Shown here: one piece after another, positions 28,243 through 50,367 of the stretch
Layout: every line of letters begins with the position of its first letter
Numbering within the stretch: position 1 is the first letter of the stretch
Source of the DNA: Flavobacteriales bacterium
Lineage (GTDB): Bacteria; Bacteroidota; Bacteroidia; Flavobacteriales_E; Vicingaceae
DNA: 64,000 nt
Direction: 5' to 3'
NCBI GenBank assembly: GCA_015075325.1
Contig: JABTUP010000002.1
Coordinates: 124,001 to 188,000, forward strand
The notes under the pieces: model-generated
Databases searched by the model: none
What the model saw: only the letters and a program-made list of their open reading frames with translations
What the model was told of the DNA's origin: nothing
Program-made: the position numbers and the translations under genes

Positions 28243-28720
28243 GAGTGAAATTTCCTGATAATCTAATAACGATAGGTTTAAAAATAATTAGAGCTTTTTT
28301 TTACAAATTTCAAACTCAAACCAGAAATTCGATAGCGTGTAAAAATTGCCATTTTATGTAAAGTTTAGTGCTGTTGATTAATGTCTAATTTTGTTTTCAA
28401 ATCACTAAACGGCAATATTGATTGTTCAGATATTCCAGAATTTTATGAACGATTCAACAATAAAATTATTTATACTAATAATTGTAATTGTTTTATTAGT
28501 TTTTTCTTTTTGTTTCGTTGATAAAATCATAATTTTAATTCTGATTATATTAAACTCCCTCAAAAACCTAATGATATCAATAGAAGTTTTGAACTTGAAA
28601 CCTTTAATGTTTTTTACTTCTGACCTTGTAAATTGAAATTATTTCAAATATAACTGGATTATAATTAACCCTTCTACAATTAAAAAATTTGTTGATGGAT
28701 TTATCATATAGGAGAATTTG
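28243..28720. other. AT-rich stretch with no clear gene
   Basis: A reading frame from an ATG at 28381 (MSNFVFKSLNGNIDCSDI) runs about 45 codons and breaks; further coding-looking pieces appear in other frames up to about 28640. This could be a gene broken by the errors that affect this block, but I cannot name it. Confidence 0.3.
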
Positions 28721-29506
28721 CTAGAACTTTTTTTGTAAATAATACTTGACAATGTTTTTTAAATTACAAATGCAACAACATTCAGCACCATTAACATTAC
28801 TAAATAATTTCTATAATATTGGATTATCATAATCTTTTTATTATATCTGTAATTAAATGAAGTCATTTATACGGAGTTGATGCCAAAAATACTAATAAAA
28901 GATTTCCAAGATTATTATAATCACCACCCATGATTCTATATTCCATTTGGTAAGGATTTGAATTATCAATAACTTTCTAATTTGAAGGAAAATCAAAATT
29001 TCCTGGTATGTCCTGTAACAAATTAAAATTTTACCCAATGAGTAGTTGAAGATAGTAATTTTGCTATTTTTTACTCCACCGTAAAGTTTTTTTATCATAA
29101 TTATAACCATTTACATATAAATAATTTTGAAGAATTGTCCAATCGTAAACTTGCTATATGCCAAGGGTAGGACAAAGTTCTGATTTGTGTTTGAACAATT
29201 TCGCCAATTATATAATCTTTGCAATGTTTCTTTTTGAAGATGTAAATTGTCATAATTACAATATTCCTGTTGATCTTTGAATTAGCATTCATGTACTATT
29301 ATCAAGTTAACATTCAGATTGTTAACTGGCTATATTTCATGGTTTTTAAATTTTCTTTCAGATCCAAAAAATTTATATTGTACCTATTGTTAATGGCTGT
29401 AAACAATTTCCATCAGCATCACAATGGTTTCTATCACTTTTTATCAGCTGATTGAAATAGTATTTGCGGATAAAACTAATAAAATAATTGTAAGTAATTT
29501 TTCCAT
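28721..29506 (-). pseudogene. FISUMP-domain secreted protein, broken by frameshifts
   Basis: Joining frames gives a signal peptide (MEKLLTIILLVLSANTISIS, start 29506) and then the order of a Fibrobacter-succinogenes-major-paralogue domain: DADGNC...PLTIGT, EYCNYDNLHL-like, RLYNW, NLCPTLG, DWTILQNYLYVNGYNYD, KIAKLLSSTTHW, then PNGIRNHGW / RIMGGDYNNLG and a Cys-containing end. Every 20-40 residues the frame changes, so no intact product can be read. The end position is an estimate from the last matching frame. Function unknown; this domain is common in secreted Bacteroidota proteins. Confidence 0.55.
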
Positions 29507-29646
29507 ATTTTTTATTGAAATGGTTAATTTATTATTTAGTTTTTCATATTCAAATATAAAAAATAAAACAATATATCATAATTAATTATGACAATTTTTA
29601 TAATTTGTAAAAGAACTTTTGTGTCATATAAATTTATGACGTTCAG

Positions 29647-29871
29647 GTGCTAACAAAAAAGGAGCTTTCAGAAAAAATTGGCTTGAGAATTAAGCAACTA
29701 CGAGTTGCCAAAGGAATTTCTCAAGCAGAATTAGGAAGGCTTTGCATGAAAGATAGACAGCATATAGAGTTGATTGAAAATAATAAAGTGTCTGCTAATA
29801 TTTATACCCTTTATATTCTATCTATTGCATTAAATGTGGATATAAAAGAATTATTTGCTTTTGACGAATAA
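29647..29871 (+). CDS. XRE-family HTH regulator
   Basis: A 74-residue protein with one helix-turn-helix domain of the Cro/C1 type (IGLRIKQLRVAKGISQAELGR ... IELIENNKVSANIYTLYILSIAL). It starts at a GTG (29647); no in-frame ATG precedes it. It is one of the few intact frames in this block. It is convergent with the toxin-antitoxin remnant, and could be an islet regulator. It lies only 34 bases from the toxin gene end. Confidence 0.8.
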   Translation: MLTKKELSEKIGLRIKQLRVAKGISQAELGRLCMKDRQHIELIENNKVSANIYTLYILSIALNVDIKELFAFDE

Positions 29872-29904
29872 TTCATTTATACTGAATCGATTTACAAAAC
29901 AAGT

Positions 29905-30224
29905 TTACAACAATTCTTTTAACAGTTCTTTTAAAACCCTTTGTCAACCAGCGAATCTTTATCAGATTTATCGTAAATAGTAAGTAAATAAACCGTATCG
30001 TGATTAATAATAAAATTAGTAATTAGTCTTGCTCCACCACTTTTCCCTTTACCTTTTGAAGCAATCGCTAAACGTATTTTATAACAATCTTTACCTAATG
30101 GATTACCTTGTTGTGGTTTTGTTTTGAGCGAGTTTACTAGTTATTACTAAATTCTACTTTTAGTGAAGGATACTTTTTACAAGTTTTTAATTAGAATTTG
30201 CAAACTTTGGAATGTATTTTACAT
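29905..30224 (-). pseudogene. RelE/ParE-type toxin gene, frameshifted
   Basis: Two frames join into a RelE-like toxin: an N-terminal piece (VKYIPKFANSN, KKYPSLKVEFSNN) and a C-terminal piece containing PQQGNPLGKDCYKIRLAIAS, GKSGGARLITNFII, and VYLLTIYDKSDKDSL, ending in LKELLKELL. The central motif is typical of mRNA-cleaving RelE-family toxins of Bacteroidota. At least two frame breaks (near 30200 and 30130) prevent translation as printed. The start overlaps the antitoxin stop. Confidence 0.75.
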
Positions 30225-30420
30225 TATAATTCATTGATTAAATCATCAGCACTTTTGGCATCAAGTTTTCCTTCTTTAACTAATTCTAATTCATTCAAAG
30301 CTGCATCTTTTATTTCATTAATAAAATTGGCTTTTGAGCTCGATATAGGAGTTACTTGTTTAATAAAGTAAAGTTTTTAAGCATCTCTAAAAAATGCAAC
30401 ATTTATTGTCTTTTATGTCT
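30224..30420 (-). pseudogene. Antitoxin partner of the RelE-type toxin, frameshifted
   Basis: Upstream of the toxin a frame reads FIKQVTPISSSKANFINEIK, then DAALNELELVKEGKLDAKSA-DDLINEL with stop at 30224-30226, overlapping the toxin start. Its N-terminal end (NVAFFRDA-like, about 30400) is out of frame. Order antitoxin then toxin and the overlap fit a type II module. The start is not defined. Confidence 0.6.
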
Positions 30421-30491
30421 AGGATAATTTTCATGAGTAAAACGAATGGTTTATGAAACAAAGTTATTAAAAATAATAATAATGTTTTTTG

Positions 30492-30630
30492 CTGGCTGGC
30501 AATTCCATTCTTCAAGAACAAATTAAAGTTGGAAAAACCATTCAAGAAATTAAAGAAACTTGGCAAGAAGGTTTAGAACTTTAAACCTATCGAAAAATTA
30601 CCTGTTGTACGAGGATTTTGAGTGAAATAA
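30492..30630 (+). repeat. Right, partial copy of the NamZ 3' end
   Basis: Matches 28111-28190 almost exactly to about 30571, then continues as a diverged copy of the stop region (GAGGATTTTGAGTGAAA at about 30610) and runs straight into the terminator that fits a NamZ gene. No upstream part of the gene is present. Confidence 0.85.
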
Positions 30631-30642
30631 TCCTTTAAAAAA

Positions 30643-30673
30643 AATCCTCGCTAAAATTTTAGTGAGGATTTTT
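30643..30673. terminator. Bidirectional terminator before acn
   Basis: AATCCTCGCTAAAATTTTAGTGAGGATT (one G-T pair) spans 30643-30670 with A and T runs on both sides. It sits between the partial NamZ end and the converging aconitase. Confidence 0.9.
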
Positions 30674-30684
30674 TTGTTTTAAAT

Positions 30685-32956
30685 TTATTGATTTTGTAGC
30701 TTAATTAAATTAAGTGCCGAACCAACTTTTAAACCATTTCAATTTGTTGGTCGTTATAGGTATGATTAAATTTAATAGTTTCTTTCGTTCCATCAGCATG
30801 AGCTAACTCTAAAGTAAGTTGTTTGCCTGGAGCAAAACTTTCTAAATCAATAAAATTAAGCGTATCGTCTTCTTTAATTTTATCATAATCAGCCTCATTG
30901 CAAAATGTTAACCCTAACATACCTTGTTTTTTAAGGTTAGTTTCGTGAATACGAGCAAACGATTTTACTATTACAGCACAAACGCCTAAATGACGTGGCT
31001 CCATAGCGGCATGTTCTCTAAGAACCCTCACCATAGTTATGATCTCCCACAACAACCGAAGGAATTCCTGCTGCTTTATATGCTCTTGCTGTAGCTGGAA
31101 CTTCTCCTTTTGCACCTGTTAACTGATTTACCACACTATTGGTTGCTCCACCAAAAGCATTTACAGCACCAATTAACATGTTATTAGAAATGTTATCCAA
31201 ATGTCCTCTGTATTTTAACCAAGGATTCGCCATAGAAATATGGTCGGTTGTACATTTTCCTTTTGCTTTAATCAACAATTTAGCTCCCATAATATTTTTT
31301 ACCATTCAAGCTGGGAATGAATCTAATAATTGAAGTCTGTCTGATGTTGGGCTAACAATTACTTCTACTTTACTTCCATCTTCTGCAGGAGCTTGATAGC
31401 CATTATCCTCAACAGCAAAACCTTTTGTTGGTAATTCATCACCTTTTGGCTCAGCTAATTTAACTTGCTCTCCTCTTTCATTTGTAATGGTATCGGTAAT
31501 CGGATTAAAATCTAAACGACCAGTTATTGCTATTGCAGCTACCATTTCTGGAGAAGCAACAAAAGCATGTGTGTTTGGTTTCCATTCAGCACGTTTAGCA
31601 AAGTTTCTGTTAAAAGAGTGAACGATAGAGTTTTTCATCTGTTTATCAGCACCTTCTGCATCCCATTGTCCGATACATATCAAGCATTGGTAAATATTTT
31701 AGCTGATTCAAATTTATTGAACGTAGCAATCAAACCATCTCTTTCGGCATGTATCTTACTTGCTCCGAACCTGGGTTAATTCCTAAAATAGCTTTTGGTT
31801 TTACCCCTTTGCTTACAGCGTCTTCTACAATTGAAGCTGCTCTACTTAAATCTTCGTAAGATGAGTTGGTACAAGAACCAATCAAAAAAATCAATATCTA
31901 ATGGTAAACCATTTGCTGTAGCTTTTGCTTTCATTTCAGCAACAGGAGTAGCTAAATCTGGTGTAAAAGATGAAATTTAAATCGGAGTTTTAAAGTTATT
32001 TTAGTATTAATTTTCAATTACTTGGATCATAAAAACTTTTCAGGATTTGCAAAAACCTCAGCATCACCTGTTAAATGTTCAGCAACTTGGTCAGCTAATG
32101 CAACAACATCTTCTAAAGAATGTTGCTTTTTAGGTATCTTCTCATCATTCATCATAACCAAAAGTTGAAGTTGTTTATTGCAATTTCAGCTCCATGTTAC
32201 AAATGGTTCCTTTAGAAATACACGATAGTGATGTATTCCTTCGCCAAATATTCAATTTGATAGCACCAGTACCACCTTCAACAGTTAAAATACCTGCTAC
32301 TTTTAAAATAACATCTTTGTTAAATGTCCAACCATTTAGTTTTCCAGTTAATTTAAAAATTTATTAATTAAAAGGAAATTTAACTCCTAAGCCATACCAG
32401 CCATTACATCAACAGCATCGGCACCACCAGTTGTACCAACTGCAACCATTTGCTAAAACCAGCATTTACAAAAATTGCGAATCAAACAATCATCATCCCA
32501 CCAGGAAAAGCATAGTTTTCTAATACTACTTGATGTTTTAATTTAGCTCTGGTTTCCATTTCCAATACCATATTTATTACAGATAGAACTTAAGAAATTA
32601 AAAACTTCATTGTTTTGTTAATACCATCTTGTAAATCTTTATCGGCTCCTAATTTTGCCTGAATTATGGATGGTCGGCATGTGCTGTAGAAGGTACTGCA
32701 ACTTTCTTCTTTCCTGCTTGCATAAACTGAAGTAATGCCATTTTAAGCAGTTGCATCTTGCATAACAACTCTATCAGTGGCAAAATCGACATACGACTTT
32801 CCTCTTTCATACGCAGTTGTTTTCTCCTTCCCACAAGTGAGTATAAATTATTTTTTCTGATAAAGTAAGCGGACGACCAACTACTTTACGTGCTGCTGCA
32901 ACTCTATCTAGGAAATATTGCATAAACATTTTAATCATTTCAATGTCAAATGCCAT
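30685..32956 (-). pseudogene. acn: Aconitate hydratase, split by many frameshifts
   Basis: Aconitase of the TCA cycle. Pieces in order on the minus strand: [44 protein letters not shown], then CIGQWDAEGADKQ, NSIVHSFNRNFAKRA (near 31640), [85 protein letters not shown] and [19 protein letters not shown], ending GSALNLIKLQNQ. At least ten frame changes, mostly single bases, break a gene of about 755 codons. The active-site Cys/Fe-S region CIGQ is partly readable. Best read as sequencing error; see findings. Confidence 0.85.
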
Positions 32957-33099
32957 AACTTAATTTTTTTTTATTATTTATTAAATGAAAACAACTGAAA
33001 TAAAAAGCAATTGCTTTTTATTAAAAAAAGTGGGATAAATACTTTGCCAACGCCCTCTTTTTAATCCGAATGGATAATCCAACAACCTGTTTTGTGGTG

Positions 33100-33128
33100 C
33101 AAATTTAAGTATTTTTAATATTTTGCAA
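33100..33128 (-). promoter_or_regulatory. Promoter of acn
   Basis: On the minus strand TTG (33126-33128), an 18-base spacer and TAAATTTG (33100-33107), an exact match to the Bacteroidota consensus. It lies 144 bases before the acn ATG. Confidence 0.75.
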
Positions 33129-33241
33129 TAAATAAAAGAAAACTTTTTAATGTTTACATTTATACGTGATTATTGGTTTTTCAATTAAAATTCGATGAAC
33201 ACGGAGTCTCACGAATACAAACAAATAAAATATAATTATAA

Positions 33242-34190
33242 ATGAGTAAAAAATCACTTTTATATTTTTTTCTATTTCTTTCGATAAATTCAGTTTGGTC
33301 AAACCTATTATCTTTTTCCCGATAGTGTGGGAGTTTGGAAACAAACATCATCATTTATGAAGGAAGTGACATCCATTATGCTCTTTTTATGAACGGAACA
33401 CTATAATCAACAGTATTATTATTTGTATAATAAGTTATATTTATTCAGACACTCCCAATAATATAGATACTGTTAATTCAAATTACTACGGAGCGATTCG
33501 AGAAAATAATAAAAAAAATCTTTTTTTAGATAGTATCTATAATATTTATTATCCAGAATACTTTTTTGTTTTACTTCTTATATTTATCCCTATCCTAGTT
33601 TTACTGAAGAAATTTTATTATATGATTTTAATGTAAATGTTGGTGATATTGAACATTAAAATCATTTGGATAGAACATATATAATCATAACATGATAGAT
33701 AGTTTGTATTCAAAAAGAATATAGAAAACAATACAATTTATTCATATTCTTATAAGCCGATGTCTTCTTGCCAACCAATTGGAAAAGCAATTTTAAATTA
33801 TGTTGAAAACCACTTTGGTGATTTAACATGGGCTTATTTAGTATTTTTATATGGTAAAAACTGAAAATTCTGAATCGCTCAATTGTTTTGAAGATGATGA
33901 AGTATTTTATTCTAATGTTTCAAATTGTATGATTGTTGGAAATGAGGAAAACAAAACAAAAGAATCATTTAAAATCTAAAAATCCAAATCCTACCTCAGA
34001 AGTTTTATTCATTGAATTAGACAACCAGTATAAAAATCTTATTTATATTTTAGATATTACTGGCAAAGAAGTTTACTCAACCAAAACGATACAAAAAACA
34101 ACATCAATTGATGTTTCTTCTTTTAAAATCGGATTATAAATAGTAAAAATTGGATTTCAATCAAGGCAATATCACATCAAAACTGATTAG
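33242..34190 (+). pseudogene. T9SS type A cargo protein, frameshifted
   Basis: The gene opens with MSKKSLLYFFLFLSINSVWS, a signal peptide, and pieces such as DSVGVWKQTSSF, VKTENSESLNCFEDDEVFYS and SNVSNCMIVGNEENKTKES follow in changing frames. The last 75 residues are a type A sorting domain: NPNPTSEVLFIELDN, IYILDITGKEVYSTKTI, IDVSSFKIGLYIVKIG, ending KTD near 34190. The domain holds the protein at the cell surface or releases it. No catalytic domain can be named. Confidence 0.65.
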
Positions 34191-34267
34191 TATAAATTAG
34201 TTCCTTTTTTCTATTTCTGTACAACACATCTTTTTTATTACTTTTACCGCTCTAAAAATAAATTACC

Positions 34268-36027
34268 ATGTACAGATCGCATACCAACGGAGAATTAAGA
34301 ATTAAAGCAACGTAAATCAAGTTATTACCCTATGTGGATGGGTTCAGAAACCCGCGAAATGGGAGCCTGACCTTTGTCGATTTACGCGACCGTTACGGTA
34401 TTACCCAATTGGTTTTGGCGAAGAGCATACTAAAACTGCTAAAACACTAAGGACGATAAGATGTTATTCAAATTACTGGAAAAGTAATTGAGCGTGAAAG
34501 CAAAAACAAAAATATCCCAAATAGGAGAAATTGAAATAAGCGTTACTCAACTTACTGTTTTAAATAAAAGTAAAACACCTCCTTTTACCATCGAAGATAA
34601 TTCGGATGGTGGAGAAGAGTTGCGTATGCAATACCGTTATTTAGATTTGAGAAGAACTCCGTTGAGAAAAAAATTAGAACTTCGTCATCGTTTATCTATA
34701 GAATTTTGCTAGCGATTAGACTGTTAAATTTCTTGAATTGAAACACCTTATGTGATTAAATCAACGCCAGAAGGTGCATCGTGATTTTGTTGTTCCAAGT
34801 AGAATGAACCCTGGTCAAAAATATGCTTTGCCACAATCGCCACAAACCTTTAAAGATGATTATTGATTTGAGCGGTTACGACCGTTATTATCAAATAGTT
34901 TCGTTGCTTTAGAGATGAAGATTTACGTGCCGACCGTCAGCCAGAGTTTAAACACAAATTGACTGCGAAATGGCTTTTGTAGAACAAGAAGACATTTTAA
35001 TGACTTTGAGGCTCTAATGGTTCACTTATTCCAGGTTAATAAAGGAATTGAATTTGATTCATTTCCACGGATGAGCTATGCTGATGCGATGTTAAACTAT
35101 GGTTGCGACAAACCTGACATTCGTTTTGGAATATTACTTTCAATTACCTAACTGATTTAGTAAAAGGAAAAGGTTTTGCCATTTTTGATGACGCCGAAAC
35201 AGTAATTGCTATAAATGCTGAAAACTGTGCTTCGTTTACTAGAAAACAATTGACGAATTAACCGATTACGTTAAACGACCATAAGTTGGCAAAAGGGTTG
35301 ATTTATTTACGTTGTAATGAAGATGGAACATTTAAGTCGTCTGTAGATAAATTTTACAACGAAGAAGACTTGAAAAGATGGGCAACGCAATGTAATGCAA
35401 AAGCTATGATTTAATTTTAGTGCTTTCGGAGAAACCTCAACTACTCAAAACTCAATTGAGTGCATTGCGTTTACATTTAGGAAATCAATTGGGGTTAAGA
35501 AATCCTGATATTTATGCTCCACTTTGGGTGTACGATTTTCCTATGTTTGAAAATTTAAAACCCCTGAAGGAATAATACAGTGGCATTCTATTCATCATCC
35601 TTTTACAAGTCCATCGGAGAAATTTAAAATCTAACTAAAGAAGAAATTTTACAAATTAAAGATTTGAATACATTTACAACTCAAGTTATGATTTAGTTAT
35701 AAATGGAACAGAGATTGGTGGAGGATCTAAAATTCATGATAAGAAGACACAATCAATAATGTTTGAATTACTTGGATTTAGTGAAGAAGAAGCTTTAGAT
35801 ACAATTTGGATTTTTAATGAACGCTTTTGAAAAAAGAGCATGGGGCTCCTCATGGTGGTATAGCACTAGGTTTTGATAGATTGTGTGCATTATTTGGCGG
35901 ACAAGAAACCATTCGTGATTTTATTGCGTTCCCAAAAAACAACAGCGGACGCGATGTAATGATTGATGCTCCTGCAACAATCGACAAAAAACAATTGGAC
36001 GAGTTGAGTTTAAAAGTGACTATATAG
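34268..36027 (+). pseudogene. aspS: Aspartyl-tRNA synthetase, split by frameshifts
   Basis: Class II aspartyl-tRNA synthetase. From MYRSHTNGELRIKA the pieces follow the family in order: [44 protein letters not shown] (one clean stretch of 225 bases), [54 protein letters not shown], then ALRLHLGNQLGLRNPDIYA, and finally [18 protein letters not shown] (motif 3) with [16 protein letters not shown]. About 585 codons are expected, and the span fits. The breaks are single bases, for instance GCAACGT where GCAAACGT would give ANVNQV. An essential enzyme cannot be decayed, so error is likely. Confidence 0.88.
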
Positions 36028-36156
36028 TTAAATCACCCCATTCTACCCTCCCTCAAGGGAGGAAACCACAACGGAGGCAATTCTCCCCTCGAAGATTTGA
36101 GATTAATTACTTAGAAAATCTGCAGTGCAGATTTGGGTTTAATAGGGGTGATTTAA
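36028..36156. repeat. MITE/REP-like element with terminal inverted repeats
   Basis: Begins TTAAATCACCCC (36028-36039) and ends GGGGTGATTTAA (36145-36156), exact inverted repeats around about 105 bases. Inside lie a CCCTCC...GGGAGG hairpin (36046-36063) and AATCTGCA-G-TGCAGATT (36117-36133). No coding frame. It sits directly after the aspS stop. Confidence 0.7.
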
Positions 36157-36200
36157 ATATTCTTATATCGATTCACGTTAAAGCAACTTTATAATAAAAG

Positions 36201-36225
36201 AGTCACGAAATTTCGTGACTTTTTG
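36201..36225. terminator. Terminator between aspS and cargo gene 1
   Basis: AGTCACGAAA and its perfect complement TTTCGTGACT (36201-36220) followed by a T run; A-rich on the other side. Serves convergent genes. Confidence 0.9.
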
Positions 36226-37314
36226 TTAATATTGTTTAACCACCTTCTCCCTAAAAAGCTGATTCCCTTCTTTATCTTTTATTACCAAGAAATACATTCC
36301 ATTGGTATAATTTCCAATATTAATTTGATTGGTAAAATCTTGTATAAGTAATTTTCCATCAATTGAATAAACTTCAACAAATTGTTTTGGCTACCAAAAT
36401 TTACTATTCCTGTTGTTGGGTTGGGGTAAATAATTCTATTTGTTTATCCAACTCAGCAACAGTTGTTAAGCCACAAAAGTAATTGTTGTATCAATATTAA
36501 TGTAAAATTCCAGTCAATTAAAAGGATAAGTTGAGGGAGGTGTTAGGTCACATAAATCAAATGAACCTCTCATCTCACCATAATTTACAGATGAATCTTG
36601 AATTATGAATTGACCAGTAGACAATCCATACACACTAATAAAATTATAGAAGCTACCTCCTATTTCGACTAATCCATGGTTAATAAAAGTTGCCCATTCA
36701 CCAATATCACCAACTCCATTATATAGATTATCTGATATAGATACAACACCTAAAAGTATCATTACTAATAAGAGCTTTATTTGTAACAAGCTCTCCATTC
36801 AAAACTCCTTTATTTACAAAATGACCATTTGAAACAAGCAGCTGATTAAATGCTAACATATCATTATTTAAGAAAGTAGCTCTTGACTCAAAATGATAAA
36901 ACTCTAATTCTGAATTATTTACAAAACTATTGTTGGTTAAACAACGATTTGCTATAATTCGCCCTCCTACATCATTTAACATGATGCTTCAGTTAAAAAT
37001 ACTATCAACATCTATTATTCCATAATTTGTAAATAAAATGAAGTATTGTCAATTGAGACAAACCTATTCAATGTATCTTGAATTAAACTTCCGCCAGTAT
37101 TAATGGTTAATGAACCTGATGTAGCTAATAAAACTAACATCTAAAATTATGTGATGATTTATGACAATACTATCACCAGAAACAGGAACTCCTTAAGGCG
37201 TCCAAGTTGATGGAGATGTCCAATTACCATCCGTCTGAGAAGTATAATTGATTGAATACACAGTAAGAAGTAAGTATATAAATGCAAAAAAGTAACGAGT
37301 TAAGCTTTTATCAT
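36226..37314 (-). pseudogene. T9SS type A cargo gene 1, frameshifted
   Basis: Read across frames, the protein starts near MIK-SLTRYFFAFIYLLLTV and continues QTDGNWTSPSTWTP, GVPVSGDSIVINHHIILD, then a Asn-rich body (NDVGGRIIANRCLTNNSFVNN, LVSNGHFVNKGVLNGELV) that looks like beta-helix repeats. The C-terminus is a type A sorting tail: KLLIQDFTNQINIGNYTNGMY and KEGNQLFREKVVKQY, stop at 36226-36228. It is closely related to the next gene, cargo gene 2, especially over the last 80 residues. Several single-base frame breaks. Confidence 0.7.
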
Positions 37315-37410
37315 CAAATGGATTTTCAAATACAACGTGTTGAATTTTGTAAAATTGCATAACCCTACTAGTTTTTGATTCTATATGTAATACAGATAAT
37401 CTATTTTACA

Positions 37411-38729
37411 TTATTCCTTGATTATCTTCTCTTTATAAAGCTGATTTCCTTCTTGGTCTTTTATTATCAAAAAATACATCCCACTTTGATAGTTTCCGAT
37501 ATTAATTTGATTGGTAAAATCTTGTAAAAGTAACTTTCCGTCAATTGAATAAACTTCAACAAATTGTTGTTGGCTTCCAATATTTACTATTCCTTTTGTT
37601 GGATTAGGATATACCGAAAAGTTGATTTATCCAATTCAGCAACAGTTGTTAATCCACAAAAGGTGATTGTTGCATCTATAGTTTCAAGATTCCAATCAAT
37701 TTTTGGGTTGATGGTGGAGGTGTTGCATCACAAAAGTCAAAACGACCCTGTCATTGTTCCTGAGTTATAAGAGGTATCCACAATACATCAAACTGCCCAG
37801 TGCTTGAGCCGTTATGGAATTAAAATTGTAGAAACTATCGCCAATGTCTTGTTTTTGTTCGTTATTAAAACTTGCAGTTAACTTTGAAACCGAATCAATT
37901 TAAAAAGCTATTTCCTAAAGTTATTTGCCCCACGCTAGTGTTATTAAAAATTTCGTTGTTCCACATGCTGTTTGAACCATTCATCATCCATTGTTAGTGA
38001 AATTTCCAAAATTGGTCATTAACATCAAAACTCAACGAATTGTTATTGGTAAATGTTCCATTGGTAAAATTGGTAAACTGAAAATATTCAATAGTTCCAC
38101 TATTTACAAATGTTCCATTATTGGTTGCACTATCCGCTTAAGTATTGCTTCCATTGTAATTGGTAAAAGTTCCTTGATTCCACATGCTATCTACAACAGT
38201 TGTTAACCCTTTGATAATACCATAATTATCCCAAATATTGTTGTTGTAAAAAGTCATTACATTTATAGTTCCATTGTTATTTATTGTCCCTGTGTTGTTG
38301 TAAATACTATCTACACCATTCATGTTTCCACTATTGTATAGATTTACATTGTTTAAAACAGATTTAACATTAAAGTTCCTGTATTCATGAAATTTCCTTG
38401 GTTGAGGTATAAAAAATCTGATAGTTGTTGTGCCATAATTATAAAAAAGAAGCATTTACTCCATTTAACATAATGTCCCTAACAGGAGAATTTTGAATTA
38501 AACTTCCACTTGCATTTACTGTTATTGAACCAACTGAATAAGCAAAACTGGTATCTAAAACTACTGCGTGGTTTATAATCACTATGTCGCCAGGAATTGG
38601 AACCCCAAAAGGAGACCAAGTCATAAAATTCATCCAATTACCATTTGAAGCTGACGTGATAAGTGGTTGAATGAGCATTGAAAGTGAATAAAATTGTTGT
38701 TAAAATGGTTAAAAAGTATGTTTTTTCAT
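37411..38729 (-). pseudogene. T9SS type A cargo gene 2, frameshifted
   Basis: Paralogue of cargo gene 1, 96 bases upstream of it. It starts MKKHTF, then SLMLIQPLITSASNGNW-like, WSPFGVPIPGDIVIINHAVV, LDTSFAYSVGSITVNASGSL, and Asn/Trp-rich repeat units (about ten) that resemble adhesin or beta-helix turns. The end is a type A sorting tail: VYPNPTKGIVNIGSQQQF, LLLQDFTNQINIGNYQSGMY, and KEKIIKE. The repeats are read in several frames. Ligand unknown. Confidence 0.7.
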
Positions 38730-38776
38730 AATACAATTATTTAATAACTAAATCTTAAAGTTAGAACAGTTATCTT

Positions 38777-39212: not shown

Positions 39213-39324
39213 ACAATAATAAAAAAATTAATTAAATAATATTCATTTAAACATAACTAATCACTCCATTTAGATTCAATCTAAATAATAAACTTTCATT
39301 AACCAACCAAAAATAAAACGTTAA

Positions 39325-39332
39325 TAACTTCG
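39325..39332 (+). promoter_or_regulatory. Candidate -7 element for the U32 gene
   Basis: TAACTTCG, one base off TAnnTTTG, 20 bases before the ATG at 39353. Confidence 0.35.
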
Positions 39333-39352
39333 CAGTTCATATTTAACACAAC

Positions 39353-40596: not shown

Positions 40597-40597
40597 A

Positions 40598-40837
40598 ATG
40601 ATTAGAATAATTCATCAACGTGACAAATGTATTGGTTGTAAAGCCTATTGTGTTGAAATAGCTTACGACCGTTGGCGAATGTCGAAAAAAAGATGGAAAA
40701 TGTGTAATTGATAATTGACGGTAAAAATAAAAAAAGGTTTTATACCGCTGTGGTTGGCGACGATGAATTTGATGCAAATGTTAATGCAGCAAAAGCTTTG
40801 TCCTGTTAAAATAATAAAAGTAGAGAAAGTAAAATAG
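40598..40837 (+). pseudogene. Ferredoxin, frameshifted
   Basis: A 79-residue ferredoxin in intact form: MIRIIHQRDKCIGCKA, VEIAYDRWRMSKKDGKC, then DEFDANVNAAKACPVKIIKV. Cys in CIGCKA, VEIA and KACPVK give a single 4Fe-4S pattern (Cys-x2-Cys ... Cys). Frames change near 40640 and 40700-40720. Placement directly after the U32 gene suggests a redox partner; that is inference. Confidence 0.7.
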
Positions 40838-40943
40838 GTAGTTAATCTATCTTTAATACACTTTCGGCTAAAAGCAAAACTAAAATTTAAACATTTAATA
40901 AAGTTTTTTTCGAACTTTTATAAAAAACTTTATTAATTACATT

Positions 40944-41904
40944 ATGTCTAAATCTATTCTAGTTATTGGTTCATCAGGACAAATCGGAACCGAGTTAGTT
41001 GAAAATTCAACTTCGTAAGATTTATCAAATTCTCACGTTATTGCTTCTGATATTAAAAAACCTCAAGTTGAACAAACTGGAATGCATTCGAAGAATTAGA
41101 CATCTTAAACAAAGAGCAGCTCCATGCAATCATAAAAAGCACAAATGTTAAAGAAGTATATCTTTTAGCTGCCCTTTTATCTGCCACAGCCGAAAAAAAT
41201 CCAGCATTTGCATGGGATCTAAACATGAATAGCCTTTTTAATGTGCTAGAATTAGCAAAAGAAAAAGTTATAGATAAAATATTTTGGCCAAGTTCAATAG
41301 CCGTTTTTGGTCCAACCACACCAAGACAAAACACACCACAATTTACTGTAATGGAGCCTACAACTGTTTACGGAATTAGCAAACAAGCAGGCGAAAGATG
41401 GTGTGAATATTACCACAATAAATATGGCGTTGATGTTAGAAGTATTCGTTATCCAGGGCTAATTGGCTATAAATCACTTCCTGGTGGTGGCAAACCGATT
41501 ATGCCGTTGATATTTTTCATCAAGCAATAAAAACAAATTCGTATGAGTGCTTTTATCAGAAAATACAGCACTTCCAATGATGTATATGAGCGATGCAATT
41601 AAAGCAACCATTCAAATTATGCAATCACCAAAAGAAAACATCAAAATTTTGTATCAAAAGGAAACCTATCAGGAATAAGTTTTACTCCAAAAGAAATTGC
41701 TGTTGAAATAAAAAACAAATTATCCAAATTTTAACATTACTTACAAACCTACATTTCAGGCAACAAATTGCCGACAGTTGGTATCAAAGCATTGATGATT
41801 CTAGAGCAAAAGAAGATTGAACTGGAAAGCAAATTATACTTTAGAAAAAATGACAAATGAAATGTTAAAAAAATTTGGAACAATTATTGAAACAAAAAAT
41901 ATAA
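40944..41904 (+). pseudogene. NAD-dependent L-threonine dehydrogenase-like epimerase, frameshifted
   Basis: An SDR-fold protein: ILVIGSSGQIGTELV at the NAD site, then IKSTNVKEVYLLAALLSATA-like, AWDLNMNSLFNVLELAK, YGISKQAGERWCEYY (catalytic Tyr-x3-Lys in YGISK), VRSIRYPGLIGY, and ALPMMYMSDAIKATIQIMQS. This matches the short-chain-type L-threonine 3-dehydrogenase of Bacteroidota. At least six frame breaks; the end (LEQLLKQKI) is in the original frame again. Product 2-amino-3-ketobutyrate would be cleaved to glycine. Confidence 0.75.
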
Positions 41905-42024
41905 AATAAACGTAACAACACTTAGCTCAGTTTATCGATAAAAAATTTTTAATTCAAACTAAATTTTTCGACATTAGATAGTTTAATTTATATTTTATTT
42001 TGCAAACTGATTATTCCTAAGGCT

Positions 42025-42914
42025 ATGAAAAAGATTCTATATATTTTAATCCCCATATTTATCTGCAGCATTAGTTCTGCTCAATCTTTTACAATTGATA
42101 AAAAGTGATACAATCAATGTTATAGATGCCAACAATCTGTAACAAGGATTTTTTATTGAATATTTGGTAAAATGAAAAAATTACCTGAATATCAACCCGA
42201 CCAAGTTGTTGAAGAAGGAAATTATGAAAACAGCAGAAAGCAAGGCATTTGGAAAAACTTTTTCCCTAATAGAAAAATAAAAAGTGATATTGCGTACGTA
42301 AACAGTAGACCAAACGGAACATATAGAACTTACTTCGAAAACGGACAAGTGGAAGAAGAAGGAAGTTGGGAAAACAACAGAAAAACAGGTGGCTTTAAAC
42401 GATTCCACGAAAACGGTCAAACATTCAACAATTTGTTTTTTCTTACGAATCAGGAAAAAGAGATGGAAAACAAGTTTACTTAAGTACGAAAATGGTCAAA
42501 TAATGATTGAAGACATTGTTGCTGGTAAAGAAAATTTGTAAAAGAATTTTACGAAGATGGTTCTGTTAAGGCTGAAAAATACTTTAACGATGGTGAAATT
42601 GATGTAACTAAAACTAAAGTTTACGAACCAAAAACTCCAATTAAAGATAAAGAAGAAAAAGAATTGGCAAGTTCACCAGTTAAAATTGTTAAAGCCGATA
42701 AAATGACGTGGTTAACTCTGGCAAATTCTTAAACGGAAATGGTCAGCACACCATGTACAATAAAGACAAACAACTTTCAAAAGTTGGTTTCTTTGAAAAC
42801 TATAGATTAATGGATGGTTATTATACAAATATGATGCTAACGGAATTTTAATAGTTATCGAAAAATATAAAGCAGGTAGATACATTGGTGATGCACCTCT
42901 TCCGAAAGAATAAT
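42025..42914 (+). pseudogene. YwqK/MORN-repeat exported protein, frameshifted
   Basis: A signal peptide (MKKILYILIPIFICSISSAQ) precedes MORN_2-type repeats with the alternating pattern EEGNYENSRKQGIWKNFFPN, RPNGTYRTYFENGQVEEEGSW and TGGFKRFHENGQ. The C-terminal part (FYEDGSVKAEKYFNDGE, then YKAGRYIGDAPLPKE) is intact. One clean run covers 42172-42460. The repeats bind membranes or proteins in other systems; function here unknown. Confidence 0.65.
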
Positions 42915-42929
42915 TAAGAAACAATTTAA

Positions 42930-42961
42930 AAACCCAGCAAATTATTCTTGCTGGGTTTTTT
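42930..42961. terminator. Terminator before cysS
   Basis: AAAACCCAGCAA and its perfect complement TTGCTGGGTTTT form a 12-base stem around a 7-base loop, ending in a T run. Confidence 0.95.
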
Positions 42962-43008
42962 ATTTATTGAATCCACTAAAAAATTTACTTTTACACAAAA
43001 TTGAAAGA

Positions 43009-44488
43009 ATGTCAAGCGGTCAATTATCTATTTACAATAGCCTATCAGGAAAAAGAAATATTCGAACCTATAAATGCTGGAATTTGTTGGTCTTTACGTA
43101 TGCAATTATCAACGGTTTAGACAATGAAGCACATTTAGGAAACATTAGAACATTCTTAAACTTTGATGATCTTTTATCGTTATTTAACACATCTTAAACG
43201 ATTAAGTAAGATATGTTAGAAACATTACCGATGTAGGTCATTTGGTTGATGATGTAGATTTGGAGAAGATAAAATTGAAAAACGTGCTCGTTTAGAAAAA
43301 TTGAGCCGATGGAAATTGTTCAGAAATACACCAACAGTTTCCACATACTTACACAATTATTCAATTTACTAAACCCTAATATAGAACCTGCTGCGACAGG
43401 GCATATTATTGAACAAATTGAAATGATTCAGAAAATTTTTGCAATAATGGATATGCATACGAGGTAAATGGATCGGTATATTTTGATGTAAAAAAATATG
43501 CCGAAAAATATAATTACGGCGAATTATCAGGAAGAAAGTTAGATGAACTTTTAGAACAAACAAGAGAAAATTTTTGAGGGTGGCGAAGAAAAACGATTTT
43601 GCTGATTTTGCTATATGGAAAAAAGCCTCTCCTGAAACCATCATGAAATGGAATTCCATGGGGCATTGGCGTTCCTGGCTGGCATTTAGAATGTTCATGC
43701 TATGAGTACCAAATACCTTGGGCAAAATTTGATATACACGGTGGTGGCATGGATTTAAAATTTCCACACCACGAATGTGAAATTGCTCAATCGGTTGGTT
43801 CTGAAGGAATCTCTCCCGTAAAATATTGGCATGGCAATATGCTTACCGTAAATTTTTTCAAAAATGAGTAAATCATTAGGCAATTCATTCTTGCCAATGG
43901 AATTAATTACTGGAAATCATCCTTTATTAGATAAAAATATTCTCCAATAACAGTAAGATTTTTCTTTCTGCAAGCACAATACTGAAGCACTTTGATTTTT
44001 CTAATGAAGCTTTAAAATCAGAAAAAGGATTGAAAAGATTGCTTTCGAGCATTAAACTATTTGATGAAATAAAACCTAGTGACAAGAGTTCATTTATTGT
44101 CAAAGAAATTATTGAAAATGCGAAAAGTTTTTTATGAACGATATCTTTATAATACCCCCATTACAATTGCACACTTATTTGATGGAATTAAATTCATTAA
44201 TCTGTTAAAAGAAGAAAAAGAGACACTTGTACATCTGAAGATTTATCGATATTAAAAAAATCATTATAAAACTTATGTTTTGATATACTTGGTTTATTAG
44301 CCGATGAGAAGATGATGCAAATCCAGAAATTTGTGTCTGATGTTAAACGGAATCGTTATTTCACTTAGAAAAATGTCGAAAGAAAACAAGGATTATGCAA
44401 CATCAGACTTTATTAGAGATGAATTAAACAAAGTAAAATCACATTAAAAGACACAAAAGATGGCACAACTTGGGAAGTGGAAAAGTAA
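43009..44488 (+). pseudogene. cysS: Cysteinyl-tRNA synthetase, split by frameshifts
   Basis: Class I cysteinyl-tRNA synthetase read across frames: SSGQLSIYNSLSGK, then HLGNIRTF, VRYVRNITDVGHLVDDVD (several frames), [30 protein letters not shown], then [49 protein letters not shown] and [10 protein letters not shown] (KMSKS loop), and a helical C-terminus to GTTWEVEK. I take the ATG at 43009 because SSGQLSIYNSL fits the family start. A dozen single-base breaks; essential, so the sequence is probably wrong. Confidence 0.85.
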
Positions 44489-45500
44489 CTTACTTTTATT
44501 AACAATTATGTTTGTTTTGTTTTCTTGCGAAAACGAGAATTCACAGAAAGAAAATAAAAAAACATTACTCAAAAAATCAATTGTTAAAGTAAATATTCAA
44601 CGTCCAGATTTTTGAATGCTGATTTCGGCTTATCATTTTATTCAGCAACAAGTAGATTTTGGTCCTCGTTTCCAAAAATAATGAATTTTGGAAAATGCCG
44701 ATTTTTAAAAACAAATTAAGTTCGTATGGTTTTACAATCCAACATTAAATTATTGGTTGGTAAAGCTAAAACATTTAACAATAAAGATATAAATTTTATA
44801 AAAATATTCTTGGCGAATATAATCCTGAGGCAAAAAAAAGAATTCTACTTTTGCTCATTTAACGATTCAAGACCATTTGCCGACCAAGATACCAAAGACA
44901 CTGACTAAACCAATTCTTGGAGCAAATGATGGTGCAAGTGGAGTTGGTGTATTGTTAGAAGTTGCTCGTCAATTGAATATTCTTAAACCAGCCATTGGTA
45001 TAGATATTATATTTTTTGATGCAGAAGACTACGGACAACCTTCATCAGCAATGTCTTTAATGGATTCCGACAGTTGGTGCTTAGGTTCTCAATATTGGGC
45101 TAAAAAATCTACACAAACCTAACTACAAAGCAGATTTTGGTATTTTATTAGATATGGTGGGTTGAAAAAAATGCAGTTTTGGTCTTCGAGAGAAATTATT
45201 TCAATGCGATATGCTCCACATATTGTTGATAAAGTTTGGAATGTTGCCGCAAAACTAGGTTACAGCAATCATTTTACAAATGAGTTAACTTATTTTGTTG
45301 GAACCGACGACCATAAGTATGTAAATGAAATTGCAAAATTCCGAGCATAGATATTATTCATTACGAAAGAAGTTCTGGCAATTTTCATCACAGTTGGCAT
45401 ACCCATAACGACAATATGAGTATAATTAGCAAACCTACTTTATCATTGTAGGAGAAACACTTATTGCTGTAATTTTTGAAGAAAACAAAATAAAATTTGG
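44460..45500 (+). pseudogene. M28-family peptidase, frameshifted
   Basis: A lipoprotein signal (LLLLTIMFVLFSC) leads a peptidase of the M28/glutaminyl-peptide cyclotransferase-like family: SAYHFIQQQVDFGPR, RILLFAHF, then GANDGASGVGVLLEVARQL, DIIFFDAEDYGQP and WCLGSQYWA, then VVPHIVDKVWNVAAKLGYS-like, TDDHKYVNEIAKFRAID. The metal-binding Asp and Glu are visible. The start overlaps the cysS end by 29 bases and the end is estimated. Four or more breaks. Confidence 0.7.
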
Positions 45501-45532
45501 CTTAAAGTTTAATATTTATGGTATATTATACA

Positions 45533-45540
45533 TACATTTG
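45533..45540 (+). promoter_or_regulatory. Candidate -7 element for the small lipoprotein
   Basis: TACATTTG, an exact match to TAnnTTTG, 43 bases before the ATG at 45584. A second exact match (TATTTTTG, 45546-45553) follows. Confidence 0.45.
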
Positions 45541-45583
45541 TCCTTTATTTTTGTAATCAATAACCAAATAATAACTAATTAAA

Positions 45584-45810
45584 ATGAAAAATTACTTACA
45601 ATGATTATGGTTGCGTCTATGTTTAGCTTAGTTGCTTGCACCATCAGAAGAAGAAAAGCTGCTGCTGAAGCTGAAGCTGAAGCTGTTGTTAATGAATTAA
45701 TGAAAACTTGATGAAGTGAAGAAGCTACAAAGAAAACTTCTCAAGCCAATTTGAAGCTACAACTGAAGAAGCTGCTACTGAAGAAGCTACAACTGAAGAA
45801 GCTGCTAAAT
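45584..45810 (+). pseudogene. Small Ala/Glu/Thr-repeat lipoprotein, frameshifted
   Basis: About 70 residues in several frames: MKNYL then MIMVASMFSLVACT (lipobox-like), SEEEK with AAEAEAEAVVNELM, and a tail of ATEEAATEEATTEEAAK repeats. Acidic, low-complexity, with a strong terminator after it. Similar tiny exported proteins are abundant in Bacteroidota; no function known. Frame breaks at about 45605, 45645 and 45745. Confidence 0.5.
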
Positions 45811-45812
45811 AA

Positions 45813-45867
45813 TTAAGGGAATGCGTTCCGGATTAAAAAGGAATTCTTTAATCATTCCCTTTTTTTA
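45813..45867. terminator. Terminator after the small lipoprotein
   Basis: AAGGGAATG (45813-45821) pairs with CATTCCCTT (45853-45861), with a further inner pairing possible, and a T run to 45867. The facing gene on the minus strand ends at 45884. Confidence 0.8.
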
Positions 45868-45883
45868 TTCAAAATTAGTTCTT

Positions 45884-47448
45884 TTACAAATCAAATTTAA
45901 TTCCTTGAGCTTTAAGGCAAACTATCAGAATAGTTTATCGGTATTGGTTTGTCTTCTCATGTAGATTTTCCAAAAGTCAGAACCCGACTCACGACCACCA
46001 CCTGTTTCTTTTTCACCACCAAAGGCACCGCCTATTTTATTAGCTGATCCTCTATGTTTACATTTGCAATAATCGTTCAGAACCTGCAAACGACAAGAAT
46101 TTTTCTGCTTCTTTCATTTCGTTAGTCATAATTGCAGAAGATAATCCTTGAGCAACACCATTCTGCAATTCAATTGCATTTTCTACATCCCCCTTATATT
46201 TCATTAAGTATAAGATTGGAGCAAATGTTTCGTGTTGTACAATTTCAAATGATTTTGAGCTTCAATAATACATGGTTTTACATAACAACCACTTTCATAA
46301 CCTTCTCCCTCTTAACAACACCACCTTCAACCAACACATTTCCACCCTCAGCTTTTGCTTTTTCTATAGCGTTTAGATACATCTTAACAGCATCTTTATC
46401 GATTAACGGACCAACATGTTTGGTTTCATCTAGCGGATTTCCAATTTTAATTTGTTTGTAAGCTACCAACAATTGCATCTCTTACCTTATCATAAACCGA
46501 TTCATGAATAATTAATCTTCGTGTTTTTGAAGTACAACGTTGACCGTAAGTACCAACAGCTCCAAATACAGCACCAGGAACTTTTACTTTTAAATCAGCT
46601 AATGGAGTTATTATAATGGCATTATTTCCTCCTAATTCTAATAATGCTCTGCCAAAACGCTCTGCAACAGTAACTCCAACAATTTTTCCCATTCGAGTTG
46701 AACCTGTAGCAGAAACTAATGGGATTCTTTTATCTGTGGTCATCATTTCACCCACTTTATAATCTCCATTAATAATACAAGAAATACCTTCTGGCAAGTT
46801 ATTTTCTCTTAATACTTCTGCAATAATATTTTGACAAGCTACCGAACATAAAGGAGCTTTTTCTGATGCTTTCCATACACAGACATCTCCACAAACCCAA
46901 GCTAAAGCAGTATTCCAACTCCAAACAGCAACTGGAAAGTTAAATGCTGAGATAATTCCAACAACTCCTAATGGGTGATATTGTTCTCTCATCACGTGAC
47001 CTGGACGCTCAGAAGGAATGGTTAAACCATGTAATTGACGTGATAAACCTACAGCAAAATCACAAATATCAATCATTTCCTGAACCTCACCATAACCCTC
47101 TTGTAATGATTTTCCCATTTCGTAAGAAACCAACTTTCCAAGCGGTTCTTTCAAGTCTCTTAGCTTATTACCAAACTGACGAACAATTTCTCCTCTTTTT
47201 GGAGCAGGTATTGCTCTAAACGATTTAAAAGCTTCGGTGGCAGCCTGCATTACTCTTTCATAATCTTCTTTGGTTGTGGTGGTTATTTTACCAATTAATT
47301 TGCCGTCTGTTGGAGAATAAGAAGAAATAGTTTCTCCACTCCCAAAAAATTTAGAACCTGTTGAAGTTCCATCATTAATTTCTTTTAATCCTAGAGCTTT
47401 TAAAGCAGTTTCAATTCCAAATGTGTTTGCTGTTAATGTTTCTGACAT
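45884..47448 (-). pseudogene. Aldehyde dehydrogenase (ALDH7, aminoadipate-semialdehyde type), broken near the 3' end
   Basis: The first 333 residues (46447-47448) are intact: PTDGKLIGKITTTTKEDYE, SEMGKSLQEGYGEVQEMID-like, PLGVVGIISAFNFPVAVWSW, VWKASEKAPL, GSTRMGKIVGVTVAERFGR and ELGGNNAIIITP. The nucleophile is in GTYGQRCTS. After that, frames change: YKQIKIGNPLDETKHVGPLI, VEGGVV, then GCYVKPCII-like, [18 protein letters not shown]-like and the end LKAQGIKFDL at 45884. ALDH7 enzymes oxidise aminoadipate semialdehyde in lysine breakdown. Divergent from DUF2480 across 65 bases. Confidence 0.85.
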
Positions 47449-47498
47449 ATTCGATGATTTATGTTAAATATTGAGCAAAATTACAAATTAAAACTGAG

Positions 47499-47506
47499 TA
47501 AATTTG
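47499..47506 (+). promoter_or_regulatory. -7 element very close to the DUF2480 start
   Basis: TAAATTTG ends 7 bases before the ATG at 47514, so the transcript may begin at or next to the start codon. The divergent gene has its own match (minus-strand TAATTTTG, 47476-47483). Confidence 0.5.
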
Positions 47507-47513
47507 TACCATC

Positions 47514-48022
47514 ATGGAAAACGACATTGTAAATAGAGTAGAAAAAAGTGGTTTGATACAGGTTAGTTTAGACGACTTTTATCCAGTCAAGGAGAACGTG
47601 TAGTTTTTGATATTAAAAACTTGCTACACGAAGGTTTTGTTTTAATCGAAAAAGATTTACGTGCTTTTGTTAAAGAAAACGACTGGAGTTTGTTTCAAGA
47701 TAAATATATTGCAGTTACATGTTCTACCGACGCTATTGTTCCCCTATGGGCATATATGTTAATTGCTTCTAATTTAAAACCGTTTGCCAAGAAGGTAGTT
47801 TTAGGCAACAAAATTGATTTAGAAAAATCGATTTTTGCAGACATCTTAAACCAACCATGATTTTAGCATTTATAAAGATGCTGCTGTAATTGTAAAAGGT
47901 TGTGGAAAATAATTTCTGTCCCAGAAAGTGTAGTTTTAGATTTTGCTTTTCGCTTACAAAATGTTGCTAAATCAATTATGTTTGGAGAAGCATGTTCAGC
48001 AGTTCCTTTATATAAAAGGTAA
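47514..48022 (+). pseudogene. DUF2480 family protein, frameshifted
   Basis: About 168 residues: MENDIVNRVEKSGLIQVSLD, then FDIKNLLHEGFVLIEKDLRA, VKENDWSLFQDKYIAVTCST, DAIVPLWAYMLIASNLKPF and VPESVVLDFAFRLQNVAKSI, ending MFGEACSAVPLYKR. Two breaks (near 47590 and 47855) and one near 47910. DUF2480 is a conserved Bacteroidota family of unknown function. Convergent with mtgA. Confidence 0.8.
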
Positions 48023-48028
48023 TTATTT

Positions 48029-48748
48029 TTATTTTTTATTTTCATTCTTTTCCTCATTATCATAATCTAATTTTCCACCCCAATATCGCATTTGCTTCAT
48101 CGTCCAGTTTATTCTGCGATTAAGATAATTAGTTGGTCTTTTTGCATTATAATTCAGTGGGCTAGGTAAAACTACGACCAAAGTTGCCGCCTGTTCCTTG
48201 CTTATTTTGATTGCCGATTTTTTAAAAAATTCCTGAGAAGCAGCCTCAGCACCATAAACACCATTTCCTAATTCAACTATATTCAGATAAACCTCCATAA
48301 TGCGTTGTTTACTCCAAAAGGTTTCAATTAAGTAATATATAGACTCAAACCCTTTTCTTACCCAACTTCTGCCTTCCCACAAAAAAACATTTTTAGCTGT
48401 TTGTTGGCTAATAGTACTAGCCCCACGTTTTTTCTTACTTTTCTCGTTATGCTTCATGGCTTTTTCAATGGCTGCAAAATCAAATCCATGATGTTTTAAA
48501 AAATTCTGATCTTCCGAACACACCACTGCCAATTGCAAATCAGGAGAAATCTCTTCAAGTGGTTTCCATTTCTTGGATAGTTTCATTTCCTTTCCATCCA
48601 TTTTCTGCTCCACCATTCTTATCACCATTAATGGCGTAACATAAACAGGAATCCATCTAAATAATATAACTAAAACTATACTTACAGCTAAAAACCAAAG
48701 GAAAAACTTAAGGCAGATTTTCCAAATTCGAGAAAGGATTTTTTTCAT
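48029..48748 (-). CDS. mtgA: Monofunctional peptidoglycan transglycosylase
   Basis: A 239-residue GT51 enzyme with one N-terminal membrane helix (about 12-33). Family motifs: VVCSEDQNFLKHHGFD (catalytic Glu), GASTISQQTAKNVFLW and RIMEVYLNIVELGNGVYGAE. It polymerises lipid II into glycan strands outside the cytoplasmic membrane. It is intact although both neighbours are broken. It ends 7 bases after the convergent DUF2480 stop. Confidence 0.93.
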   Translation of the reverse strand: MKKILSRIWKICLKFFLWFLAVSIVLVILFRWIPVYVTPLMVIRMVEQKMDGKEMKLSKKWKPLEEISPDLQLAVVCSEDQNFLKHHGFDFAAIEKAMKHNEKSKKKRGASTISQQTAKNVFLWEGRSWVRKGFESIYYLIETFWSKQRIMEVYLNIVELGNGVYGAEAASQEFFKKSAIKISKEQAATLVVVLPSPLNYNAKRPTNYLNRRINWTMKQMRYWGGKLDYDNEEKNENKK

Positions 48749-48846
48749 CTTTTTTAGCCCACTTGAGTCAAATGACTTGAATGCAAATGTAAATTAAATC
48801 CTTAAAAAATCAATACCTTTACCGTTGTCTAAATTTATTTATAAAA

Positions 48847-50287
48847 ATGCTTAAAATTAAAAATTACATCAACGGAGAATTAATTGCTCCTCTTAGTGGA
48901 AATTACTTAGATAATATTAATCCTGCTATCGGAAAAGTATATTCTTATATTCCTGATTCTGATGCAAAAGATGTAGAATTGGCTACACAGGCAGCACTAG
49001 CAGCTTTCCCTTCTTGGAGTAAACACCGAAAGAAAACGTGCTCGAATTATTCAAAAAATAGCTTTTCTGATTGAAGAAAACTTAGATAAACTTGCCGAAG
49101 CTGAATCAATCGATAATGGAAAACCATTAAAACTGGCTAAAACAGTAGATATCCCACGTGCTGCAAGTAACTTTAATTTTTATGCTACCGGTATTTTACA
49201 TTATGCTTCCGAATCACACAGCATGGAAGACACAGCAATTAATTATACATTGAGAGAACCTATTGGAGTTTGTGGTTGTATTTCGCCATGGAACTTACCA
49301 CTTTATTTATTTAGCTGGAAAATTGCTCCTGCTTTAGCTGCTGGTAATACTGTAGTTGCAAAACCTTCTGAGGTAACTCCAATGACTGCATACTTGCTTT
49401 CAGAAATATGCATACAAGCTGGATTACCAAAAGGGGTATTAAACATTGTACATGGACTTGGGCAAAAAGTGGGTGCAGCTATAACCGAACATCCACAAAT
49501 ACCTGTTATCTCCTTTACTGGAGGAACTGTTACTGGAAAACAAATCGTATCAACAGCTGGTCCAATGTTTAAAAAACTATCGTTAGAATTGGGTGGGAAA
49601 AATCCAAATATAATTTTCGACGATTGCAATTTTGAAGACGCACTAAAAACAACCGTTCATTCATCATTTGCAAACCAAGGACAAATCTGTTTATGTGGCT
49701 CTAGAATATTTGTTCAACGTGGTATTTACACTAAATTTAGAGATACTTTTGTAGAAAAAGTAAAAAACTTAACCGTAGGAAACCCATTTAGCGAAAACAC
49801 AAATATTGGAGCTGTTGTTTCGGAACCTCACATGAATAAAATACTTTCTTACATTGAATTAGCTAAAGAAGAAGGAGGAACAGTATTGTGTGGCGGAAAA
49901 AGAATTGTTATTGAAGGTGAAAATAAAGATGGTTATTTTTTAATGCCTACAATAATTGAAGGATTAGATTTTAACTGTAGAACCAATCAGGAAGAAATTT
50001 TTGGACCAGTAGTAACCATTACACCTTTTGATACAGAAGAAGAGGTGTTGATGATGGCTAACAGCACTAAATACGGATTAGCATCGAGCGTTTGGACCGA
50101 AAATTTGAAAAAAGCTCACCGAGTTGCTGCAAATTTACACGTAGGAATAGTTTGGGTAAATACGTGGCTGTTGAGAGATTTAAGAACACCTTTTGGAGGA
50201 GTTAAACAATCGGGAGTCGGTAGAGAAGGAGGTTTTGAAGCCCTTCACTTTTTTACCGAACCAAAAAATGTATGTATAAAACTATAA
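48847..50287 (+). pseudogene. Aldehyde dehydrogenase, one frame break near the start
   Basis: Codons 1-60 read MLKIKNYINGELIAP ... AALAAFPSWSK, then the frame is lost at 49022-49041 (AAACACC and GAAAACGTG appear to lack one base each), and the rest is clean to 50287. Motifs: GVCGCISPWNLPLYLFSWK, KPSEVTPMTAYLL, SFTGGTVTGKQI, LELGGKNPNIIF and the nucleophile NQGQICLCGSR. Similar to hydroxymuconic- or betaine-aldehyde dehydrogenases. The break is the last one of the error-rich block. Confidence 0.9.
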
Positions 50288-50332
50288 AAAACCGTTCATC
50301 ATTTTTAAAATCCATTTTCAATAAGAATAGAG

Positions 50333-50340
50333 TACGTTTG
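50333..50340 (+). promoter_or_regulatory. Candidate -7 element for the M42 peptidase
   Basis: TACGTTTG, exact match to TAnnTTTG, 27 bases before the ATG at 50368. Confidence 0.5.
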
Positions 50341-50367
50341 TATCATCAATAATCTAAAAATTATATT

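Follow-up and report, generated by a model that had tools for sequence, protein, structure and literature searches.

An acn-aspS-cysS stretch full of frameshifts in a Flavobacteriales genome: very probably a long-read gap fill with an accurate counterpart on a separate contig

The window analyzed here is the whole stretch of 64,000 nucleotides, i.e., bases 124001-188000 of contig C12 (261,078 bp), from a genome of 62 contigs (3.32 Mb) that is presumably a metagenome bin. Its main features are listed in Table 1, and all positions given below refer to the window unless a contig is named. To the left, a PALP/CBS enzyme, an FtsX-type permease, and NamZ, all assigned by Pfam, occupy 24329-28242 between the NIF3 gene and the aconitase block, which lies in a patch where acn, aspS, and cysS exist only in fragments. 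A short piece at 29934-30140, judged by eye, may represent a fragment of a RelE-like toxin. To the right of the patch, the small gene at 47514-48022, which we take to be DUF2480, has open counterparts of 167-168 aa in three relatives of the same genus, while the 480- and 527-aa proteins of relatives match the second aldehyde dehydrogenase (ALDH) gene in frame 1 up to about 49035 and in frame 2 beyond it (tblastn).

Table 1. Features in and around the damaged part of the window
Feature	Position in window	Strand	Evidence and remarks
NIF3 gene	23.2-24.3 kb		Left flank of patch
NamZ (DUF1343) exo-muramidase gene	27025..28242	+	Pfam NamZ_N 4e-86, NamZ_C 6.6e-26; clean to 28213, last codons noisy
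Noisy patch, no frame of at least 200 aa	28214..46449	.	ORF scan; 29408-47455 is 93.9% to C28
Variable segment within patch	28300..29407	.	No good alignment to C28 72-1714
Small open XRE-type helix-turn-helix gene	29632..29868	+	Pfam HTH_3 2.2e-12; alignment to C28
Aconitase (acn), fragmented	30732..32820	-	TIGR01340 pieces at C12:154732-156820; intact at C28 3003-5270, 1120 bits, no stop
aspS, fragmented	34280..36018	+	TIGR00459 pieces at C12:158280-160018; intact at C28 6568-8328, 697 bits
cysS, fragmented	43200..44438	+	TIGR00435, 17 internal stops, C12:167200-168438; C28 436 bits, no stop
Aldehyde dehydrogenase, open 333-aa part	46450..47448	-	Remaining part of gene, about 45.9-46.45 kb, broken
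Small gene with frame changes	47514..48022	+	Relatives' proteins need two frames (tblastn)
Open transglycosylase gene	48029..48748	-	Pfam Transgly 4.9e-48
Second aldehyde dehydrogenase	48847..50287	+	One net frame change near 49.03 kb, the rightmost break

In a six-frame list of open reading frames (ORFs of at least 100 aa, with ATG, GTG, or TTG starts), the longest ORF lying entirely within 28243-46446 was 132 aa, while those of the flanks reached 1196 aa, and the 18.2 kb from 28240 to 46449 contained no frame of at least 200 aa, with normal coding density around it. The fraction of bases in frames of at least 200 aa, calculated over the whole of C12, was 0.0 in 28243-46446, 0.85 in 1-28242 and 47464-64000 taken together, and 0.84 outside the window, and every one of the 206 C12 slices of 18.2 kb that do not touch the patch had a fraction of at least 0.65. 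The second-longest stretch of C12 devoid of such a frame is 2.1 kb, which leaves the patch as the sole long one; in eight other contigs (383,847 bases sampled) the mean fraction was 0.83 and the longest frameless stretch 1.94 kb. A previous sequence-only reading of this DNA had described about 20 kb of frameshifted genes, essential and nonessential alike, and both the ORF list and the C12-wide fractions bear out that description. The limits it had set, 28243-49045, need adjustment because the noise begins at 28214 and the damage is heavy only to about 46450, with a few breaks going on to 49.03 kb.

The same reading had proposed that intact aspS, cysS, and acn be sought in the rest of the genome. 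All three were found on C28, a 19,716-bp contig of the same assembly, of which 1715-19715 aligns in one piece to 29408-47455 (93.9% identity; 657 mismatches, 343 gap openings). The genes open on C28 are those for aconitase, aspS, peptidase U32, NAD-dependent epimerase, a MORN-repeat protein, cysS, peptidase M28, and aldehyde dehydrogenase, in addition to a DUF4421 gene and a gene with no Pfam match at its left end. For each of aspS, cysS, and acn, the copy on C28 is the only match above the family cut-off in the genome, and C12 gives pieces; weak matches below the cut-off lie on C18 and C20 for aspS and on C1 and C61 for cysS. In a DNA search with 28900-48800, in which 40 of 256 candidates were scored, no other part of the genome except C28 gave a long match. 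Among named records, the aspS protein came closest to those of a "Vicingaceae bacterium" (JARGOE010000019.1, 77%) and a "Flavobacteriales bacterium" (74%), in a comparison from which records of the genome itself were possibly excluded. Loss of the essential genes with no backup could be dropped as an explanation in view of the intact copies on C28. Comparison with C28 also shows that the damage is far denser than the "about ten" breaks per gene counted earlier: 51 indel events were found in acn, 29 in aspS, and 33 in cysS, and 50, 28, and 31 of them, respectively, shift the frame. The start of aspS is disturbed, as had been noticed, but the 13-base "family" reading offered for it is absent from the plus strands of both the window and C28.

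The nature of the differences was analyzed in 30000-45800 aligned to C28, where 385 substitutions and 308 indel events were counted. The 322 substitutions within genes are spread evenly over codon positions 1, 2, and 3 (110, 98, and 114; p 0.52), and 240 of the 250 indel events in coding sequence are not multiples of three. Dense frame-shifting indels are thus found with no overall codon-position bias and in coding and non-coding parts alike, although the rate of difference events is somewhat lower in the former (0.029 versus 0.037 of columns; p 0.046). The differences are also clustered, given that 179 of 475 spacings are 10 columns or fewer, compared with a mean of 124 and a maximum of 150 in 1000 random placements. 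In bacterial pseudogenes, indels are usually much rarer than substitutions; this is what a decaying duplicate would be expected to show, but here the two are nearly equal in number. One-base deletions are concentrated in long runs, because 39 of 117 fall in runs of at least five, which hold only 5.5% of the bases. The earlier idea of loss inside short homopolymers covers only a part of the pattern: one-base insertions are equally many (117), and 51 of them stand next to no like base. A small group of differences behaves otherwise. Among 54 isolated substitutions, C>T and G>A changes account for 31, and the 43 within genes show a third-position excess (10, 10, and 23; p 0.02); these look less error-like, suggesting that a minority of the differences probably reflects true strain variation.

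Three relatives of the genus, designated G001, G002, and G003, were compared at the 385 sites. G003 agrees with C28 at 220 sites, with the window at 42, and with neither at 34 (89 not covered); the corresponding counts are 248, 43, and 41 for G001 (53 not covered) and 140, 32, and 19 for G002 (194 not covered). For every relative, the count in favor of C28 is 4.4-5.8 times that in favor of the window. At the isolated substitutions the preference is smaller, i.e., 19 to 10, 21 to 9, and 11 to 8, and over the XRE segment none of 20 sites was covered by any of the three. Taken together, the even codon positions, the similar numbers of indels and substitutions, the frame shifts, and the siding of the relatives with C28 indicate that the patch arose from read error. 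The relatives also help to locate the block. Each has one aspS above the cut-off, and in G003 and G001 NIF3 is followed directly, on one contig each, by acn and aspS; therefore, the acn-aspS block belongs near the left flank of the patch. G002 has NIF3 on one contig and the block on another. The three genes that separate NIF3 from the patch in the window (24.3-28.2 kb) do not do so in G001 and G003, where the PALP/CBS, FtsX-type permease, and NamZ genes are located elsewhere, so that the arrangement at 24329-28242 would be either a rearrangement or a second join. The junction between the block and ALDH, common to the window and C28, did not appear in any of the three.

At the left border, the change from clean to noisy sequence is sharp to the base pair (28213/28214) and falls in the last codons of NamZ. 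Bases 1-23 of C28 are identical to 28191-28213, and beyond them C28 continues into a normal-looking NamZ end where the window is noisy. This 23-bp overlap is suggestive as a placement of C28, but it sits in a repeat present twice on C28 and is no proof by itself. The 3' end of NamZ is directly repeated both in the window (28111-28213 and 30492-30591) and on C28 (1-71 and 2805-2945), and the repeats flank a variable segment that carries the XRE regulator and the possible RelE-like fragment. The repeat and the segment together look like a small insertion at the end of the gene that left a direct repeat behind. When 28.1-29.7 kb was compared with C28 1-2030, only the last ~300 bases aligned well, and a tblastn search of 28.3-29.4 kb for the two left-end genes of C28 gave a single match of 22 aa (E 0.015); this part of the window is a variable segment, possibly of another haplotype. 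On the right, the heavy errors cease near 46.45 kb, and the last 42 aligned bases of C28 (19674-19715) are identical to 47414-47455, 1 kb farther right. Apart from a single final base, C28 holds nothing past these two border matches. The ORFs at 46450-47448, where a single in-frame 3-base difference from C28 exists, and at 48029-48748 are open, while frame changes persist in the small gene (47.51-48.02 kb) and in the start of the second ALDH gene near 49.03 kb. These changes, at 47514-49035, are probably residual errors of the same origin as the patch. No second copy of the region with breaks, 47.5-49.03 kb, was found in the DNA search mentioned above, whose query ended at 48800 (40 of 256 candidates scored).

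The open part of the first ALDH gene differs from C28 in another manner. Over 974 columns, 46480-47455 is 86.3% identical to the ALDH gene of C28, and the 130 differing sites are distributed as 17, 15, and 98 over the codon positions. The relatives are divided there: agreement with C28, the window, and neither was 55, 48, and 27 sites for G003, 37, 57, and 36 for G001, and 70, 38, and 22 for G002. In the broken part (45900-46440, 73 sites), C28 and the window were supported by 28 to 30, 39 to 22, and 47 to 19 sites. The window part thus looks like a true second allele. Two ALDH alleles (46450-47448 of the window and 18149-19708 of C28) exist although the neighboring block lacks such divergence. 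The allele of C28 is 85.9% identical to that of G002, i.e., about as close as it is to the allele of the window. Given the clean second allele and the lack of a C28 counterpart for 28.3-29.4 kb, the assembly probably mixes two haplotypes, perhaps those of two strains, or else holds a local misjoin.

The explanation that we favor, with a probability of roughly 95% on the strength of these comparisons, is that the patch is an assembly artifact in which a gap was filled by uncorrected long reads, and that C28 would be the accurate contig of the same locus. The suggestion of uncorrected long reads was already made in the sequence-only reading and gains support from the near-equal indels and substitutions, the lack of an overall codon-position bias, and the deletions in long runs. 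That reading had also warned that its view would have to change if another intact copy or a mixture in the assembly came to light; C28 exists and a mixture is probable, but both fit an artifact. C28 is compatible with it because this contig is unattached, reaches from the left border to a point 1 kb to the right of the heavy damage, and lacks flanks that would put it at another place. The accurate assembly might have broken at two tangles, one being the direct repeat of ~100-140 bp at the 3' end of NamZ and the other the ALDH gene with two alleles, and the accurate contig between them, C28, would have stayed free and unplaced. Haplotype mixture probably contributed in this way, as a cause of the gap. 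Noisy long reads would then have joined the contigs on the two sides, with a consensus that filled 28214 to ~46450 but received no effective correction. If the accurate reads were drawn to C28 and not to its noisy twin, correction would be confined to places that C28 lacks or where the window departs from it, as might be the case with the XRE gene, the open part of ALDH, and most of 47.5-49.05 kb, although this account leaves the noisy 28.3-29.4 kb, which has no twin, unexplained. Less in keeping with the artifact are also the isolated substitutions, the breaks at 47.5-49.03 kb, the three genes between NIF3 and the patch, the block-ALDH junction not seen in the relatives, and the slightly lower rate of difference events in coding columns.

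Two other explanations have to be weighed. The patch might be DNA of a diverged relative joined into C12, a strain chimera that involves no read error. The third-position bias of the open ALDH part at 86.3% identity, the differing content of 28.3-29.4 kb, and the third-position excess of the isolated substitutions would agree with such a join, but divergence alone is insufficient because the differences in 30-45.8 kb have no overall codon bias, the frames are broken throughout, and the relatives disagree with the window, all of which makes the chimera very unlikely. A real 18-kb duplication of acn-aspS-cysS and the genes around them, with C28 as the working copy elsewhere and the C12 copy decayed by a burst of indels, can be virtually dismissed, even though one assembly holds two copies, the isolated substitutions lean toward C>T and G>A, and the lack of an overall codon-position bias is pseudogene-like, since the ratio of indels to substitutions is far above that usual in bacterial pseudogenes, the left border is sharp to a base pair, C28 has no flanking sequence of its own apart from a single base, the block sits close to NIF3, as it does in G001 and G003, and the clean, selected ALDH part is found inside the same alignment.

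The broken stretch is almost certainly not a biological feature and tells nothing new about biology, and its value is only that of a warning. The quality scores of the genome (completeness 100, contamination 1.13) hide the problem: they are blind to the patch because intact genes are presumably supplied by the free contig C28. An automatic annotation of this region would probably contain false pseudogenes and genes entered twice, and it would be unsafe to conclude from the present genome that tRNA synthetases were lost or duplicated. A published study on small genomes reports that errors in long-read assemblies create false frameshifts and stops that pseudogenize genes and are exposed by comparison with references (PMC12007338). 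The present case resembles it in that gene-fragmenting errors, presumably of long reads, are revealed by comparison, whereas whole draft assemblies are concerned there and a single stretch of an otherwise clean contig here. In another study, metagenomes were assembled in hybrid form from short and long reads, and the analyses were run without the long-read polishing of OPERA-MS (PMC10928208). With the pipeline and the read type of the present genome only guessed at, the likeness would lie in the mixture of read types and in long-read polishing that may be omitted.
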